DNA of 41,541 bases from Pseudomonadota bacterium (lineage in GTDB: Bacteria > Desulfobacterota > Binatia > Bin18). Location: the NCBI GenBank assembly GCA_005804965.1, contig SYOC01000080.1, positions 1 through 41,541 on the forward strand. The letters are read 5' to 3'. The notes below the pieces were generated by a model. It searched no databases. It saw only the letters and a list, made by a program, of their open reading frames with translations, and was not told the DNA's origin. Position numbers and translations under genes: made by a program. How positions within the stretch are numbered: position 1 is the stretch's first letter; each line of letters begins with the position of its first letter. Shown in pieces: positions 16,328 to 35,566 of the stretch.

Positions 16328-17632
16328 TCATTTTCCGCGTTTTGTCAGCCCTTGTGGTGTGAATGCCGTCTCCGCCAAACCGACACCAAATGAGGGCGGT
16401 TTGTCACGTTGCAGCGGCACTTCGACGGTCGCATGTCCCTGGAGTTCGTCGACCGAGAGCATGAAATCTGGTTGGGCGAGGGAAAAGTCGCCTTCCTCCG
16501 TACGTGCGATTGAGACGGAGTTCAACAACATACGCCATAATTGCCCGGCACGATTGTACGCTTCCTTGTAGTAGGCCACGTACAGTTCGCGGTCGATCCA
16601 TAGCACCTGACGGCGATAGGTATACTCTGGATCTTTCGCCGTGGCCTCGATCACCCAGACCGGCCGCTTGACCAAATTATAGTTAGCCGGCCACCATGCG
16701 TGTCCTTTCCACCCTTCTTTTTCCCAGCCAGGGATGAGTGAGTCTTGATGAGTGTCCAGCGTAAAACCTTTGTCAGCACGATGCAGTGGCTTGGGATTGG
16801 CGCTGGCGTAGGGGACCAAGGCATCTTGGACGCCGATCAGTTTCCAAGTGAAATACTGCACTTTGCCGGAGAATAGATACGGATCGTCATGCACCAAATC
16901 GGAGCCGAACAAGTCTTCCGAGCCGCCAAACGCCGGGAGCGTGCGCACGCGGCGGAGTTCCGGCACATACGCCCAGAGCGAGTTCCATTTCTTCGGGTCG
17001 AGATACACCCATTCCAGCGTTACGACGCCAAAAATTTCGACCGGAGAGAAACCAGCGATGAGATTTTTACGCAAGGCGGCATCAGGATTGGCAAGCGGAC
17101 CAGAGAAACGCGAGCCGTAAAAGAGCAGTTGCCCAACAAATTCTGCCCGACGCTCGAAGGCTGTGGGCTTGACCCAATTGAGGGTGCTGCGGCGCTCAGT
17201 ATCGTCTGCCTGCATCAGCGTGTAGGAAAAATTATAGATGGCCTTGGCAGCGGCTTGCGGATCTTTAGGGTCGATCTGCGGAAACGGATAGCCATAGAGA
17301 AAGTCGGGATAGGCTTTCGTCGCGTTGGCGATCAACGAATCCTCTGCGTCAATGGAAAACTTGCCAGCGTTGGCTTCTGAAGCCGCCTTAAATTTGCTGC
17401 CCCACGTCGCAGAGGCCGGGAGCGTGGCGATAGTTGCCTGATAGCCACCGTTCTGAAAGCGAGTAAGGACTGCATCCGGAATCAAGCCTTTGGCCTCTTG
17501 CCAGTTCTCTTGACTCAGCAACACTCCCACCTTCGGCTCGGCCCAACTTGGACTGCCGAGAACAAGCGGCCACAACAGCCCGACGAGAATAACCATAACG
17601 TGCCAACCACGAGGACGACATCTCTGCATCAT
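16328..17632 (-). CDS. DUF1329-family exported lipid-related protein
   Basis: A 434-residue exported protein of the DUF1329 family, which resembles outer-membrane lipoprotein-sorting (LolA/LolB-like) beta folds. A signal peptide covers residues 1-31 (MMQRCRPRGWHVM then a hydrophobic run ending at SWAEPK). Family features include the AYPDFLYGYPFPQIDPKDPQAA segment, the paired FKV-type strands, and the PVWVIEATAKDPEYTYRRQVLWIDRELY strands. ATG 17632 has a GAGGTG ribosome site. It starts nine bases after the RND exporter locus and DUF1329 proteins are often encoded next to MMPL-type RND proteins, so a joint role in moving a lipid or hydrophobic substrate is inferred. This gene is intact although its partner is broken. 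Confidence 0.85.
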   Translation of the reverse strand: MMQRCRPRGWHVMVILVGLLWPLVLGSPSWAEPKVGVLLSQENWQEAKGLIPDAVLTRFQNGGYQATIATLPASATWGSKFKAASEANAGKFSIDAEDSLIANATKAYPDFLYGYPFPQIDPKDPQAAAKAIYNFSYTLMQADDTERRSTLNWVKPTAFERRAEFVGQLLFYGSRFSGPLANPDAALRKNLIAGFSPVEIFGVVTLEWVYLDPKKWNSLWAYVPELRRVRTLPAFGGSEDLFGSDLVHDDPYLFSGKVQYFTWKLIGVQDALVPYASANPKPLHRADKGFTLDTHQDSLIPGWEKEGWKGHAWWPANYNLVKRPVWVIEATAKDPEYTYRRQVLWIDRELYVAYYKEAYNRAGQLWRMLLNSVSIARTEEGDFSLAQPDFMLSVDELQGHATVEVPLQRDKPPSFGVGLAETAFTPQGLTKRGK

Positions 17633-17641
17633 GCATACACC

Positions 17642-19201
17642 TCAGACAGACGAGGACGGGCGCTCCGGTCGCTCCTTCGGCACTCGTTGAATCGAGTCTT
17701 GAAGCAAGCCCAAGAGCGTTGTCGATAAGTTGAAAAAAATGCGAGCGGCAGTGCGAGGATAGCGCCACACTCGGATGCGGAAGCGCTCGTCCATCGCCAG
17801 AACTTCCACGTCTTCCAGCGCCACGACTTCGGAGAGACGTTCTTCACTGCCGATGATCCCGGTCAAGCCGAAGACATCGCCGCGCTGCATCATCCACAAG
17901 ATTCGCGGTTGTCCGTCCGTGACAACCCGCACCTCGGCACGACCACTAATCATGACGAACATGGCGCTGCTCACTTCACCAGAGCGGATGAGAGCCTGTC
18001 CGCGCGGGAAGGTCTTGAGCTCTCCCATCAGGGCCACGATCTTCGCCTGCGAAGGCCGCAGGTTGGCGAAGAGACTGATAGTTTTGTGCGGATCTTTTCC
18101 GAGTTTTACGTGCAAAAGGTCCCACAAGGTAATGATCGGCGTTGTCGCCAGGAGCGCAGGCAGGAGGGAAATTTCTCCCACCAAGCCAACCAGAATCGTG
18201 ATAGCGGATAAGAACCCGAACTCGCGAATCGGCACGAAGGTGGAAAAACACAAGCCAAAAAACCCGAGACACAGGACGAGCGAAGCATACAATGCCGGTT
18301 TGCCGACCGTGGACAGCGTCTCCAAGAGCGCCTGCTCTTGGTCAGCAGTGCTGCGAATCGCTTTGCTCAAGCGCATCATAATATGGATGGTGTCATCGAC
18401 AGCCACACCTAAAGCGATCGCGGCAATAATGTTGGTGCCGAAGTTCAGTTCAGCTCCCGTTGCCCCCATTAAGCCAAAGAAGACGAACAACGGGAACACA
18501 TTCGGCACCATAGCGATCAACCCCACACGGGTGGACAAGAACATCGCCGACATCAGCACGAAGATGATGCTGGCGGTCAGCGCCAAACTCCAAATTTGTC
18601 CACTCACGATGCTGCCCGTCGTGCGGGTCAGGAGGATCAAGTTCCCCGTCGGATGGGCGCGCAGCTCGGGCGGCAAATGGCCAGCCGCAAACGTCTCGAT
18701 CTTTTCGACGAGGGTGGCAATATCGCTGGAACGCGACAGCGAGGTACGGACGAGAATCGTCGTGCGCGTGTAGTTCGGATGATTGATGACACTGGTCACA
18801 CTCGCAGCATTCAAGAACACGATACGCATGACTCCCGCTAGTTGCGCGGGGTTGGACCAAAAGTTTGTCTTTACTTCTGGAGGTGGAGCCTCGATGACTT
18901 CTCCTTCCGCCGGCTCCAATGGAATTTCTTGGATGCCACGATCAATCAGTTCGCAGTAATCGACGAAAGATACGGTTTTTTCTACACCGGGAAGAGTATC
19001 TATATAGAGCTGAAGATTTTTGACGCGCCACAGACTATCCCACTTTTTGACGATATCTTTCTCGTCGCCTTCGATCACTACATAGAACGTCATGCTGCCA
19101 ACCAAGGCACGGTTGATCGCATCGGTCGCCTGCCGAATCGGGTCAGTTTCGCGAAAAAAGACTGAAAATCGGAGCCGACTTGAATCGTCGCAGCTTGCCA
19201 A
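17642..19201 (-). pseudogene. C-terminal half of the RND exporter plus cNMP domain
   Basis: This open frame of 519 codons carries the second RND repeat. True homology begins at codon 17 (RETDPIRQATDAINRAL), exactly where the frameshift falls; the first 16 codons are out-of-frame noise and the nominal start has no ribosome site. It holds a periplasmic loop, six membrane helices near residues 205-350, and from about residue 385 a cyclic-nucleotide-binding beta-roll (FPRGQALIRSGEVSSAMFVMISGRAEV, then MMQRGDVFGLTGIIGSEERLSEVVALEDVEVLAMDERF). The motif KDPHKT-LFA-LRPSQAKIV just before the roll is shared with the paralogue. Alone it would lack half of the transporter. Confidence 0.6.
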
Positions 19202-20361
19202 GTGGAAAGCACCACAAGGAGAAGGCTACTGGCAATTACGAGTCGCCGCTGTCGGCTCGACAGCGCTGCCAAAGTGCGCAACACCGCACTGACTCTGGGG
19301 GAAAACGCCTCAGTCCGCTTGGTCGGAAGTGGCAAGAGCATGAGCAAGGCAGGCACCAAGACGATGGACAACAGAAAAGCAATCGTAATCCCCACTGCCG
19401 CATAGATGCCCAGCTCACGAATACTCACGATACTATTCGCGGCCAAGGAGATGAACCCGATCACCGTCGTCAGGGCCGCAATAAACAGCGGCGTCGTGGT
19501 CGCACGCAAGGTCTCGGTAATCACTTCAGCCACACTGCAACCGGGGCGTGTCAGTTCGTAGTATTCGGCCACTACGTGCAATGAGTACGCCGTACCTAAG
19601 ACGAGCACTAACGGCGGGAGCGCCATGTTGCCCAAACTCAAACTACTGCCCGCGAGCGTCATCAGCCCTAACGTCCAAATGAGACTCACGATGACCGTCA
19701 GGGTGGGCAGCAACACCCCGCGCACCGAGCGAAAACTGAAGAACAGCACGATGACGAGCAGCACAAGCGTGAGCGGAATAAATAGTGTGAGATCCGCCCA
19801 CATGGCACGGGTGGAATGGACTTTGAAGTGCGGGAGCCCGGTGTAGTAGAGCTTTTCTGGACCTTTCTCCTTTTCCACCAAGGCTTGAATGCGATCATCA
19901 ATCCCGCGCCGGAAGAACTCATCATCACCGAGGTTCTCGAAGAAGATGTTGATCGCCGCTGCCCGACCGTCGGCGGAAACGAGATTTTTGAGGTAGACCG
20001 GCTGTTCAGTGAGCCGCCGTTTGAGGTCGGCCATCGCAGCGTGAGGCGCATTCACATCCGGCACCAAACGTGCCGACTCACGCGCCACACTGGTAATAAT
20101 ATCCGGCGCGTTGGTGAGGCTGATGACGTTCTTGACCTCAGGGATCTGGCGGATGGCTTCGGTGAGGCGCTGCATTTTCTGCAGCACCGGCGGCGTGTAC
20201 ACGTCGTCGGCGAGTACACCAATCACCCCGATCTCGTCACTGCCGAACTGTTGACGGACTTCGCTATAGTAGGCTTTTTCTGGATCGTTGGCCGGGAGGA
20301 GGCTTTCCACCGAGCTATCCAGGCGCATGTGGCGCGCATGGTCGGCAAAAAAGCCGGTCAA
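19090..20361 (-). pseudogene. N-terminal half of the RND exporter
   Basis: This open frame of 423 codons carries the first periplasmic loop and the first membrane bundle of an MMPL-type RND protein. The family block NDPEKAYYSEVRQQFGSDEIGVIGVLADDVYTP matches the paralogue closely. The nominal start is TTG 20361, inside the first membrane helix, because the real start at 20424 is cut off by TAG. Homology stops at codon 403 (SDFQSFF); the last 20 codons are out-of-frame. Five helices of the sterol-sensing-like bundle are visible near residues 180-340. Confidence 0.6.
19153..19159 (-). other. Slippery heptamer T-TTT-TTC at the frameshift point
   Basis: In the zero frame of the upstream half, the codons are TCT-TTT-TTC, giving the X-XXY-YYZ heptamer used for -1 ribosomal slippage. 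A -1 slip here gives SFF followed by RETD and joins the two halves exactly as in the paralogue. The same place is a six-base homopolymer, which is also where indel mutations or sequencing errors are most likely. Confidence 0.6.
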
Positions 20362-20513
20362 CAGCAGAATGAGGAGGAGAATACTCTTGGGTCTATGAAT
20401 GATGAGAGCGTAGACCCACTACATGCGGCTTCAATCCTCTTCCCTTCCGTATCGTAAGCACGAACAAACTTTTCACTCTCTGCCGCAGCAGGGACGGCTT
20501 GGCCACTGCCGGT

Positions 20514-29516: not shown

Positions 29517-29978
29517 TCAGCTCTTGGCGGCAGCGGCATTTGCCCAGCCCTGTTGAATCGGCACGAAGTGGAAGAAGGTGCAGTCGCGCTCGACAAACTT
29601 CCACTGACCATTTTCTCGCCGGAAGCGGTCTTCGTAGTAGCCAGAGCCGATCATGCTTTTCTCGCCACGGGTAATGCGCACTTCGATAGAACAGGTGCCG
29701 GTGGCTTCGTCGCCAGCCAGCGCAATGAGATGGTTATGGATACAGGGGAGCGCGAAGTTGCGCTTGATCGCCCCGTAAAATGTGTCGAGATCGGCACGCC
29801 CGTGTACAGTCATCACTGGCACATCCGGCATGCGGTTAATGAAGGTGCCGTCGTCGGTGAACAAGGCGGCAACCTTCGCACCTTCACCACGGGCAACACC
29901 ATGCGCGTAGCGAGCCGTCAGTTCTTTGATTTCTTCGCGATCCGCAAGTTCCTGCACTTGCTGCTCTAGGGTTTTCAT
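29517..29978 (-). CDS. SnoaL-like (NTF2-fold) protein, copy 2
   Basis: A 153-residue SnoaL-4 type NTF2-like protein. The long first helix (LADREEIKELTARYAHGVARGEG), ALFTDDGTFINRMPD, CIHNHLIALAGDEATGTCSIEVRIT and GSGYYEDRFRRENGQWKFVERDCTFFHF repeat the pattern of the copy at 25961-26401. ATG 29978 has AAAGGAGGG just upstream; a 26-residue extension is dropped. It diverges from the TIGR03032 gene across about 190 bp. The enzymatic role is unknown. Confidence 0.86.
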   Translation of the reverse strand: MKTLEQQVQELADREEIKELTARYAHGVARGEGAKVAALFTDDGTFINRMPDVPVMTVHGRADLDTFYGAIKRNFALPCIHNHLIALAGDEATGTCSIEVRITRGEKSMIGSGYYEDRFRRENGQWKFVERDCTFFHFVPIQQGWANAAAAKS

Positions 29979-30077
29979 TGCTTGCCCTCCTTTGTGTGGC
30001 TTGCTCTGTGGTGTGTTCCCATAGTCGCTCATGCTTTGCAAGGGGCAGTCAAACAATTGCGCATGTTCCCCTTCCTA

Positions 30078-30105
30078 TTGACAGAGTTTTCTTCCTCAGT
30101 GTAAG
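30078..30105 (+). promoter_or_regulatory. Candidate sigma-70 promoter of the TIGR03032 gene
   Basis: A perfect TTGACA (30078-30083) is followed after 16 bases by TGTAAG (30100-30105, four of six consensus). It stands 65 bases before the ATG at 30170, in a divergent intergenic region. It is not tested against alternatives. Confidence 0.35.
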
Positions 30106-30169
30106 ACCGGACGCGACAGGCTCCTCAGCGAACTCTCGTGAAAATTTCTGCGCAAAAAGAGGCGTTTCC

Positions 30170-32578
30170 ATGGCTCAATCTGCTCAACCTGCTCAACCCG
30201 CCCAATCTGCTCGCCCAGCTCAAGCTCCGGTCCCCCCAGAACTCGCACCTTTGCGTAGCGTCCACACCTCGAATTTGCCAGCATTATTCACCCAGCTCGG
30301 CATTAGCCTCGTGGTGTCCACCTATCAAGCCGGAAAGGTCATCCTCGTACGTGCCGACAACGGGACTCTGAATACTCATTTCCGTACCTTCGCCAAACCC
30401 ATGGGTATCGCGGCGGACGCCTCGCGGTTGACCATCGGCGGCAACAATATGGTGTGGGACTACCGCAATATGCCGGCGGTGGCACAGAAGATGGACCCGC
30501 CCGGCAAATACGACGCCTGTTTTTTGCCACGCCGCGCCCACGTCACTGGCGATATCGACATTCACGAGCTTGGCTACGACCAGAACAATGAGTTGTGGAT
30601 CATCAACACTCGCTTCTGTTGCCTCTGTACGTTGGACGCCACACACAGTTTTGTGCCACGCTGGCGTCCGCCGTTTGTCAGTGCTCTTGCTCCCGAGGAC
30701 CGATGTCATCTGAACGGGCTGTGCATCGTGAACGGTAAGCCCAAGTATGTCACCGCGCTCGCCGAGACTGACACCGCCGGTGGATGGCGTGCCCACAAAG
30801 CACGTGGTGGTTTACTCATGGATATCGACACCAACGAGATTTTGCTGCGTGGTCTCTCCATGCCGCACTCGCCGCGCTGGTATCAGAATAAACTCTGGGT
30901 CTTGGAGTCGAGCGAGGGCAGCCTCGCGCAGGTGGATCTCAAAACCCGCACCTGGAAAACCGTTGCTCAAGTACCAGGGTTTACGCGCGGTGTCGACTTC
31001 GTCGGCCCGCTCGCGTTTATCGGTCTCTCGCAAGTGCGTGAAAGCGCGACCTTTAGCGGCATCCCGCTGGTCGAACGCCTCACCGAACGCACCTGCGGAG
31101 TGTGGATCGTGCATATCGAGACTGGGCAAACGGTTGGCTTTTTGCGCTTCGAGGCCGGCGTGCAAGAAATCTTCGCCGTGAAAGCGCTGACCAACGCGCG
31201 GTTCCCCGACATCCTGGAGTGGAACGACGACCGGCTCGCTCATTCGTATGTGTTACCGGACGCAGCTTTAGCTGAGGTCAAACTCCCCACTGCCGAAGAT
31301 CTCGCACGTTTCCCAGGGCATCACTTCCAACAAGGCATGGATTTGTACCGCAAAGGGAAAATCGACGAATCCATTGTCGCGTTTCGCCAGTGCGTAGTGT
31401 TGCAACCCGAGTTTCCCAATGCCCGCTACAATCTCGGCATCGCCTTGGGTGACGCTGAACAGTACGTCGAGGCCGTCGACCACTTACAGCACGTCATTGC
31501 CACCGAGCCGCAACGCGCTGAGGCCTATAACAGCCTCGGATATCTCTTCAGCCGTCAGCGCCGAACACAACACGCTATTGCCCAATACGAACGCGCTATC
31601 CAGCTGCAAGCCGACTACGCCCAGGCGCATTTCAATTTGGGGATGACGCTGCTGCAGCTCGGCGATTATCAGCGCGGGTGGACGGAATACGACTGGCGCT
31701 GGAAGACTGGGCAGTTCACGCCCTTTCGCTGTCCGCAGCCGCAGTGGGATGGAACTCCGAGTCCGGACAAGACCTTGCTCATCCATACCGAACAAGGCGC
31801 TGGCGACGCCGTGCAGTTTGCCCGCTATCTACCGTGGGCGGCAGAACGCTGCAAAAAAATCATTCTCGTGTGTCTGCCGACCCTCATGCCGCTGTTCGCC
31901 ACGATTCCCGGCATTGGGCAAATTCGCGAAGCTGGGCAGATTGCGGTCTCCGAGTTCGACACCTTTTTACCTTTGCTCAGCCTGCCACGCGTACACAACA
32001 CCACGCTCGATACCATTCCTACGGCAACTGCGTATCTCGACGTGGATGCGATCCGCCGACGAAAGACGAACGGAACAGAGGCGCTTACGTTACCGGCTCC
32101 ATCCTCGGCCAGTCACTTGAAAGTTGGCATCGTGTGGGCAGGCAGCCCAACGCACAAGAACGACAGCCATCGTTCCATTGCCTTGCCAGAATGGCTGCCG
32201 ATACTACGTACCCCTGGGGTAGAATTTTATAGTTTGCAGAAAGATGCACGCAGCCACGACATCAGCGAACTACCAGCCGAGGTCAAGGTACACAACCTCG
32301 ACCCGCTGCTAGGCGATTATGGCGATCTTGCCTTGCTGCTCGACCAACTCGATGTAGTGGTGAGCGTCGATACCTCGGTGGCACACGTGGCCGCAGCTTT
32401 GGGCAAGCCGGTGTGGACGTTGATTAGCTACGTCCCCGATTGGCGCTGGGGATTAGAAGGCGAGACTACGCCCTGGTACCCGACGATGCGGCTCTTCCGG
32501 CAGCGTCAGCCCCGCGACTGGGCCAGTGTCATGGCGCAGGTCGCAGCAGAGCTGCACGAGCGGCGGGTGGCGAATTAG
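30170..32578 (+). CDS. TIGR03032 domain-TPR-glycosyltransferase-like fusion protein
   Basis: An 802-residue cytoplasmic protein with three parts. Residues about 30-365 are the TIGR03032/DUF4915 domain (LFTQLGISLVVSTYQAGKVILVRAD, the GIAAD and HLNGLCIVNGKPKYVTALAETDT blocks), a propeller-like fold of unknown function. Residues about 385-520 are TPR repeats (AFRQCVVLQPEFPNARYNLGIALGDAEQY and two more). The rest is a GT-B-like domain related to glycosyltransferase family 9 (HTEQGAGDAVQFARYLPWAAERC, VGIVWAGSPTHKNDSHRSI, VVVSVDTSVAHVAAALGKPVWTL). Its start has Ala/Gln/Pro repeats. ATG 30170 has AAGAGGCG; the open frame extends upstream, but without support. It may modify a protein or surface glycan; inferred only. 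Confidence 0.85.
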   Translation: MAQSAQPAQPAQSARPAQAPVPPELAPLRSVHTSNLPALFTQLGISLVVSTYQAGKVILVRADNGTLNTHFRTFAKPMGIAADASRLTIGGNNMVWDYRNMPAVAQKMDPPGKYDACFLPRRAHVTGDIDIHELGYDQNNELWIINTRFCCLCTLDATHSFVPRWRPPFVSALAPEDRCHLNGLCIVNGKPKYVTALAETDTAGGWRAHKARGGLLMDIDTNEILLRGLSMPHSPRWYQNKLWVLESSEGSLAQVDLKTRTWKTVAQVPGFTRGVDFVGPLAFIGLSQVRESATFSGIPLVERLTERTCGVWIVHIETGQTVGFLRFEAGVQEIFAVKALTNARFPDILEWNDDRLAHSYVLPDAALAEVKLPTAEDLARFPGHHFQQGMDLYRKGKIDESIVAFRQCVVLQPEFPNARYNLGIALGDAEQYVEAVDHLQHVIATEPQRAEAYNSLGYLFSRQRRTQHAIAQYERAIQLQADYAQAHFNLGMTLLQLGDYQRGWTEYDWRWKTGQFTPFRCPQPQWDGTPSPDKTLLIHTEQGAGDAVQFARYLPWAAERCKKIILVCLPTLMPLFATIPGIGQIREAGQIAVSEFDTFLPLLSLPRVHNTTLDTIPTATAYLDVDAIRRRKTNGTEALTLPAPSSASHLKVGIVWAGSPTHKNDSHRSIALPEWLPILRTPGVEFYSLQKDARSHDISELPAEVKVHNLDPLLGDYGDLALLLDQLDVVVSVDTSVAHVAAALGKPVWTLISYVPDWRWGLEGETTPWYPTMRLFRQRQPRDWASVMAQVAAELHERRVAN

Positions 32579-32794: not shown

Positions 32795-35566
32795 ATGGAA
32801 CGCATCTACCACTTCATCGTCCACTGGCCGAAAACTGTGTTGCTTGCGCTCGTCCTGCTGACTGGCTTTCTCGGCATGCAAGCGCTGCAAATTCGTATCG
32901 ATAGCTCGGCCGAGCATCTCTTAGCCACGGACGATCCCAAGAAGCAGTATTACGATGAAATCCGTGCGATCTTCGGTGGCGATGACATCGGTGTCATCGG
33001 CCTTATCACTGAGAATGTCTATACCCCCGAGACCATCGAAAAAATTCGCCGGATCACGGCACAGTTGGAGAAAGTCGATGGAGTGCAGAGCGTCCGCAGC
33101 CTGACGAATCTGCCCGACGTGATTGCCGATCTTTCCTACCCTCCGCCTCTCGTTGCCAAAACTCCGCTGGACCTCGCCGCGCTCGCCGCGCTCAGGAAGC
33201 GTATCGAAGAAGAGTATCCCATTTACCTCAACTTCGTGGCCAAGGACGCCGGCGGGACGGCTATCGTTGTCTATTTCAAGACCCTCACCGAAGACGAGTT
33301 TATCGAAAAAGGTGTGGATGAGCGGATCGAAGAGATCATGCAGCAAGAGCAGGGACCAGAAACCCTGTACTACACAGGCATGCAGCACATCAAAATCAGC
33401 TCGCTCAAGCTCATGCGCCAAGACCTGCGCACGTTCACGCCGCTGAGCTTGCTCGTCATTATGGGCGTCTTAGGTGTGTGTTTCCGCAACGTGCGTGGCG
33501 TGGTGCTGCCGCTGCTGTCCGTGCTGTGCGGAGTGGTCTGGACCCTGGGAATCATGGTGCTGACGAACGCGGCGATTACCATCGGGACGCTGGTGCTCCC
33601 CTCACTCTTGATCGTCATCGGCAGCACCTATTCCATCTATGTCATCGCCCAATATGAAGAAGAATCTGGCAAAGGTAGCTTGGCCAGAGAAGTCGTCCTG
33701 CGCTCGCTCAAGCGTGTGAGCCTGCCGGTCACGGTGGCTGCCCTTACCACAGTCGTGGGGTTCATCGCGCTCTTAGTTAATCGGATCGGCACCATTCGCG
33801 AGCTTGGGTTATATGCCGCAGTCGGGTTCGCCAGTGTCACGATTATCGTGCTGACTCTCATCCCCGCAGCTTTGGTGCTGCTTCCTTTGCCACGGGTGCA
33901 AAGCACAGCGAACAAAGGCCGGCTTCTGGCAGCTTTCCTCACGCGGATGGGACACTTCAACCGTCGCTATCAAAAGCCCATCATCATTGCTGCCGCCGTA
34001 TCCATTCTCCCGTGTCTTTGGGGGATGAGCCTGATCAAAGCCGACTCCAATTTTTTGCAGTTCTTTGAGCCGAACTCGCCAGTACGCCGCGCCAACGAAA
34101 TCATCAGCGACAAAATCGGCGGAGCGCAGGTCTTCTCTGTCATTGTCAGCAGTAAAGAGAACGGAGGCATTGCCACGTGGGATATCGTGAAACGCATGCG
34201 CGACTTGCAACTGTATCTCGCTACCCAGTCGGGCATCGACCAGACCACCTCGCTTGCGGATATTTGCGAACTGATGGACCGTGCCATTCGCAAGGGTGGC
34301 TCCTCGGATGACATCATCGTGCCAGAGGAGGGCGAGGCAGCGGCAGCTCCTGTGGAGACGGCAGCGGATACGCCTTTTTGGGAAAGCGAAGAACGGTTCG
34401 ACGCCACCATGCGTTTGATCAAAAACGCCAATCCCAAAACCTTCTCCTCGTTCGCCAACTCGACGTTCTCTATGGCAAGCCTCACCGTGCGCACGCGCCT
34501 GACCAGTTCGAGCGACATTGTCCGCGTCGCCGAAAACATCCGCACCTATGCCGCCGAGCGGTTCCCACCAGAGATCGAAGTCCACCCTACTGGCAGCCTC
34601 ATCCTGCTCAACGAAGCCACGGAAGACATCGTCTGGGGGCAAATCACCAGCCTGGGGTTTGCTTTGCTGGTGATTTTCGTGGTGCTTTCGCTCATGTTCC
34701 TGTCGGCAAAAGTTGGGTTCCTGTCGTTGCTGCCGAACCTCCTGGCGATCTTGATCTTTTTTGGCGCGATGGGTTGGACCGGGGTCACGCTCAACTTAGG
34801 CACGAGCATTATCGCCTCAATCGCTATCGGCATCGCCGTTGAAGACGCGATTCGCTATCTCGCGCGCTTGAGTGCCGAGATCCAAGCCACGCACGATCAA
34901 GAACAGGCCATTTTCCAAACCATAGCAACCGTCGGCAAACCCATCATTTATGCCTCGGCAGCATTGGGTCTCGGCTTTTTAACCTTGCTCTTTTCCAACT
35001 TTGTGCCCATCCAAAAGTTCGGCATCCTGACCGCGATCACTATCGCGGCAGCGTTCGTCAACGATTTGGTGTTGTTGCCGGCGCTGCTGGCGACGACTCG
35101 TATCATCACTTTGTGGGATGTCGCAGCTCTACGGCTGGGTAAGGACCCACACAAAACGATTCCGTTGTTCGCCGGGTTGCGCCCCTCGCAAGCGAAGATC
35201 GTGACACTGATGGGCAAATTGAAGACCTACGCGCCTGGCCAGCCCATCATTCAACAGGGCGAAATCGGCGATGAAATGTACATCCTGATTACCGGCACGG
35301 CGGACGTCTTCATCAACCCCGATGTGCAACGCAAGCTCGTGCGCACTCTCACCCGTGGCGATGTCTTCGGGGAGATGGGCTTGATCCGTCATCACCAGCG
35401 TGCAGCCGACGTGATTGCCAAAGAAGCCGTAGAAGTGATTGCCGTAGATGAGCGGTTCTTGGACCAAATGCAGCGCCGCTATCCGCGTGTCGGTGCCAAA
35501 ATCTTCCTCAATATCGCCAAGATGTTGAGTGACCGCTTGCAGGAGTCGCAACGCCCGACGAAATAG
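32795..35566 (+). CDS. MMPL-type RND exporter with C-terminal cNMP-binding domain
   Basis: A 923-residue inner-membrane transporter of the RND superfamily, MMPL/hopanoid-exporter-like type. Each half has one helix, a periplasmic loop and five or six helices: helix 1 at residues 14-32, bundle 1 near 220-370, helix 7 near 395-410 and bundle 2 near 615-770. From about 800 a cyclic-nucleotide-binding beta-roll follows (YAPGQPIIQQGEIGDEMYILITGTADVF, then LTRGDVFGEMGLIRHHQRAADVIAKEAVEVIAVDERF), containing the FGEMGL and RAADV phosphate-cassette-like segment. So a cAMP-like ligand may gate transport. ATG 32795 has GGGGGGGAG upstream. It is the intact paralogue of the broken locus at 17642-20424 but has no DUF1329 neighbour. 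Confidence 0.9.
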   Translation: MERIYHFIVHWPKTVLLALVLLTGFLGMQALQIRIDSSAEHLLATDDPKKQYYDEIRAIFGGDDIGVIGLITENVYTPETIEKIRRITAQLEKVDGVQSVRSLTNLPDVIADLSYPPPLVAKTPLDLAALAALRKRIEEEYPIYLNFVAKDAGGTAIVVYFKTLTEDEFIEKGVDERIEEIMQQEQGPETLYYTGMQHIKISSLKLMRQDLRTFTPLSLLVIMGVLGVCFRNVRGVVLPLLSVLCGVVWTLGIMVLTNAAITIGTLVLPSLLIVIGSTYSIYVIAQYEEESGKGSLAREVVLRSLKRVSLPVTVAALTTVVGFIALLVNRIGTIRELGLYAAVGFASVTIIVLTLIPAALVLLPLPRVQSTANKGRLLAAFLTRMGHFNRRYQKPIIIAAAVSILPCLWGMSLIKADSNFLQFFEPNSPVRRANEIISDKIGGAQVFSVIVSSKENGGIATWDIVKRMRDLQLYLATQSGIDQTTSLADICELMDRAIRKGGSSDDIIVPEEGEAAAAPVETAADTPFWESEERFDATMRLIKNANPKTFSSFANSTFSMASLTVRTRLTSSSDIVRVAENIRTYAAERFPPEIEVHPTGSLILLNEATEDIVWGQITSLGFALLVIFVVLSLMFLSAKVGFLSLLPNLLAILIFFGAMGWTGVTLNLGTSIIASIAIGIAVEDAIRYLARLSAEIQATHDQEQAIFQTIATVGKPIIYASAALGLGFLTLLFSNFVPIQKFGILTAITIAAAFVNDLVLLPALLATTRIITLWDVAALRLGKDPHKTIPLFAGLRPSQAKIVTLMGKLKTYAPGQPIIQQGEIGDEMYILITGTADVFINPDVQRKLVRTLTRGDVFGEMGLIRHHQRAADVIAKEAVEVIAVDERFLDQMQRRYPRVGAKIFLNIAKMLSDRLQESQRPTK

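Follow-up and report, generated by a model that had tools for sequence, protein, structure and literature searches.

Exporters of the MMPL/RND family that carry a C-terminal cyclic-nucleotide-binding domain, and whose genes lie beside a DUF1329 gene, are the closest relatives of the gene described here, which has both the domains and the DUF1329 neighbour in common with them; orthologs within the bacterial family are 77-93% identical to it. Unlike these relatives, the present exporter has a frame that is broken twice, an arrangement seen in this genome only.

A frame change inside a bacterial transporter gene has been described before. In Escherichia coli, copA undergoes programmed -1 frameshifting; the complete pump is encoded in the zero frame, and a shift to the -1 frame yields a short product (PMC5009743). 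The present exporter resembles copA in having a -1 slippery site within the gene for a transporter, but copA works the other way round: the exporter would require the -1 frame for its full-length protein. The exporter's site lacks conservation and comes after a stop at codon 2. It was also proposed that certain interrupted pili genes of bifidobacteria are possible "pseudo-pseudogenes" (PMC5009743). As in the exporter, a single frameshift would yield a long product from these genes; however, the exporter has a second, nonsense lesion, and its relatives are unbroken.

Organization of the locus

The window, that is, the whole stretch of DNA that was analysed, comprises 41,541 nucleotides (contig SYOC01000080.1), and the features relevant here are collected in Table 1.

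Table 1. Coordinates of the broken exporter gene, its two lesions and the related genes in the window.
Feature	Position	Strand	Remarks
Broken MMPL/RND-family exporter gene with C-terminal cyclic-nucleotide-binding domain	17642..20424	-	Pfam MMPL in both halves, cNMP_binding in second half
TAG stop as codon 2 of the broken exporter	20419..20421	-	Glutamine codon there in two orthologs
T TTT TTC, where the exporter's open frame shifts -1	19153..19159	-	One frame here in 24/24 other homologous sequences
Exporter first half, zero frame, premature TGA at its end	19090..20418	-	
Exporter second half with cyclic-nucleotide-binding domain, -1 frame	17642..19153	-	
Intact DUF1329 gene just downstream of the exporter, same strand	16328..17632	-	Homologues in the stretches around the G001 and G011 orthologs
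Intact exporter paralogue, MMPL and cyclic-nucleotide-binding domain	32795..35566	+	About 47% identical in second half; 923 aa

Briefly, the start ATG (20424-20422) is followed at once by TAG (20421-20419), after which the zero frame stays open as far as the TGA that ends at 19090. A heptamer in the phase X XXY YYZ (TC|T TTT TTC) is made up of six T (19159-19154) and a C (19153), and homology is carried on with zero residue loss in the -1 frame, which reads RETDPIRQ... from 19153 to a TGA at 17642; the exporter does possess an in-phase X XXY YYZ heptamer that joins two frames. Its two MMPL repeats exceed the Pfam cut-off. Additional lesions along the gene were found neither in the alignment with the ortholog of the same-genus genome G001 nor in the gene comparison of the two genomes. 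Relative to the intact orthologs, the assembled exporter gene carries disabling lesions. These observations bear out a preliminary description of this DNA, which had reported the TAG as codon 2, the frame break at T-TTT-TTC (19159-19153), the -1 slip that joins the halves without residue loss, and the undamaged state of the rest of the gene. The same description had called the downstream DUF1329 gene and the paralogue at 32795 intact, and they are: the DUF1329 protein is 88% identical over 434 residues to that of the same-genus relative, and the paralogue is a single frame of 923 aa.

A total of 28 MMPL-domain matches were detected in the genome. One paralogue, on another contig (C149), has a single open frame, with about 60% identity in the second half. 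In the exporters at 17642-19153 and 32795-35566, an MMPL/RND protein is fused to a C-terminal cyclic-nucleotide-binding domain, an architecture that occurs in several paralogues across the bacterial family, one of them adjoining DUF1329, and that possibly represents a nucleotide-regulated exporter. Elsewhere in the window, positions 29978-32578 encode a protein of 866 aa in which TPR repeats and a weak match to glycosyltransferase 9 come after a DUF4915 domain. No tRNA genes were found in the window.

Homologous sequences at the two lesions

In G001, the sole other genome compared from the same genus, the ortholog lies in the syntenic place and forms one open frame (93% protein and about 82% DNA identity). 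The G011 ortholog (78%) and the G013 ortholog (77%) likewise each consist of a single open frame. A contig scan gave one distant partial match and two full-length relatives (JABFSC010000036.1 and JACQEL010000911.1), the latter two seemingly identical with the G011 and G013 loci; a plasmid search gave distant homologues only. The nearest named relatives found were "Deltaproteobacteria" MAG contigs.

All 24 homologues and paralogues inspected (three orthologs and 21 more distant sequences) encode the Phe-Phe stretch and the downstream codons in one frame. The heptamer is missing from the nearest ortholog, that of G001, and some homologues have a run of seven T at the break position that is translated straight through. 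A slippery site combined with a two-frame arrangement was thus not conserved in the relatives, every one of those examined using one frame. At codon 2, glutamine is encoded in G001 and G013, while the N-terminus of the third ortholog differs; codon 3 also differs, being Arg in the orthologs of G001 and G013 and Trp in the broken exporter. According to the preliminary description, relatives in which the frame is unbroken and codon 2 is a sense codon would speak for a plain intact gene and remove both recoding and decay. Such relatives exist, but in other species, so that recoding as a conserved feature is removed and decay in this lineage is not. In another genome of the family, a homologue (L064, G014 C103:1739-3208) has one in-frame TGA inside the matched stretch and is possibly a second broken exporter.

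Decay of the gene or error in the assembly

The exporter is probably a recently inactivated gene, a young pseudogene, which is the most likely of the readings considered. The nonsense change at codon 2 would end translation immediately, and the separate loss of one base at the mid-gene T run would put the halves out of frame. With both lesions real in the cells, the broken gene would give no full-length protein, and paralogous exporters would cover the lost function.

In pairwise comparison with G001, the exporter has an omega of about 0.05 for its first half and 0.045 for its second, compared with 0.058-0.062 in intact paralogues and 0.065 in DUF1329. Both halves were under strong purifying selection until very recently. 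Since these values resemble those of the intact neighbours, the lesions are either young or artefacts. The latter is the claim of the second-ranked reading, which we regard as unlikely: the cells would have an undamaged gene, and consensus mistakes would account for one lesion or both, with the indel at a homopolymer. In its favour are the position of the indel at a T run, the fragmentation of the assembly (440 contigs, 84.7% complete) and the strong purifying selection on both halves with no clear relaxation. Lineage-specific amino acid changes in the exporter number 16 versus 6 with two outgroups and 21 versus 19 with G011 alone (15 versus 7 in the intact DUF1329); the excess depends on the outgroup, and these relative-rate counts therefore do not decide between decay and error.

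The background rate of frame breaks, estimated from a sample of about 0.71 Mb of this genome and about 1.2 Mb of G001, argues against an error. Among the 156 genes aligned (59,137 aa), the broken exporter is the only internal frameshift of this genome, even though homopolymers of at least six are frequent (30 in the window), and two unrelated kinds of error would be needed in one gene. The chance that a second independent error falls in the same gene is about 927/59,137, or roughly 2%. At such a low break rate, a single 2.8-kb gene is unlikely to collect two independent errors, and real decay is favoured, although the weighting of decay against error is a judgement rather than a computed value. 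The remaining stop differences, sorted by start-codon position rather than case by case, are found ahead of possible starts or close to the C-terminal end. A further frameshift that seemed to be present in this genome (L067, about 3834) was discarded, being upstream of the gene's ATG. Of 160 genes in the reverse comparison, one has its frame broken in G001. In the converse of the exporter's case, a gene that is open in this genome (L184, 1006-aa frame) has a frame break in G001 (L118 at about 17463, from contig C34).

Of the three readings that the preliminary description had left open (decay, sequencing error and recoding), it had favoured a pseudogene on the strength of two lesions. The lesions are as described and the lean towards a pseudogene is reinforced by the gene comparison, while recoding has lost ground to the unbroken relatives.

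Recoding and a split gene

A programmed -1 ribosomal frameshift, or transcriptional slippage, at T TTT TTC would make the full exporter, and the heptamer is indeed in phase, with a -1 slip joining the halves without residue loss. This explanation is nevertheless very improbable. Conservation of the site is lacking: the nearest ortholog is single-frame and does not have the heptamer. Downstream RNA folding, which the preliminary description had suggested searching for a conserved pseudoknot or stem, was no better than in shuffled sequences (z = +0.31 for 90 nt and -0.17 for 60 nt, for pseudoknot-free folds), and upstream of the heptamer, RNA structure likewise did not go beyond shuffles. In-frame words of the form XXXYYYZ are common in the window (24 in 9,518 codons of 21 other reading frames, 9 of the 24 consisting of A/T only), which makes the heptamer weak evidence. 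Because homologues with a seven-T run are read straight through, loss of one base is enough to make the heptamer, and selection for it is not needed; such a loss, beside or within a T run that encodes Phe-Phe, can create the heptamer by itself.

In addition, the TAG at codon 2 would stop translation anyway, and a slip further on would be no help to such a message. TAG terminates 11 of the 21 window reading frames counted, and a PylS gene was not found in the genome (84.7% complete), so the codon-2 TAG should act as a stop; reassignment of TAG, or pyrrolysine, was rejected on the same grounds. A lineage-specific rescue, in which slippage at T TTT TTC plus reinitiation or readthrough past the TAG would give a low level of full-length exporter, with the relatives unbroken, is less probable still.

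A split gene, with the two halves produced as separate proteins and then assembled, is just as improbable as such a rescue. A TTG at 19201 could start the second half, and purifying selection is seen on either half, but the period preceding the break accounts for the low omega. By inspection of the hydrophobic stretches, the break does not fall between the repeats but interrupts the second one behind its first helix, so that the second half would be without that helix. In the first half, the ATG is followed by TAG, and the next listed start, TTG at 20361, cuts into the first helix.

Biological meaning

Taken as a young pseudogene, the locus is very probably an ordinary exporter gene, broken recently in one uncultured bacterium. 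Nothing points to a new decoding trick, and the slippery sequence is not a frame-change site in any relative examined. The case illustrates how weakly a slippery heptamer speaks for recoding when the frame break sits in a T run coding for Phe-Phe, and that one genome from the same genus settles most of the question. The intact paralogues, one of them about 60% identical, could cover the loss. For the organism, the likely meaning is the loss of one among several paralogous exporters.
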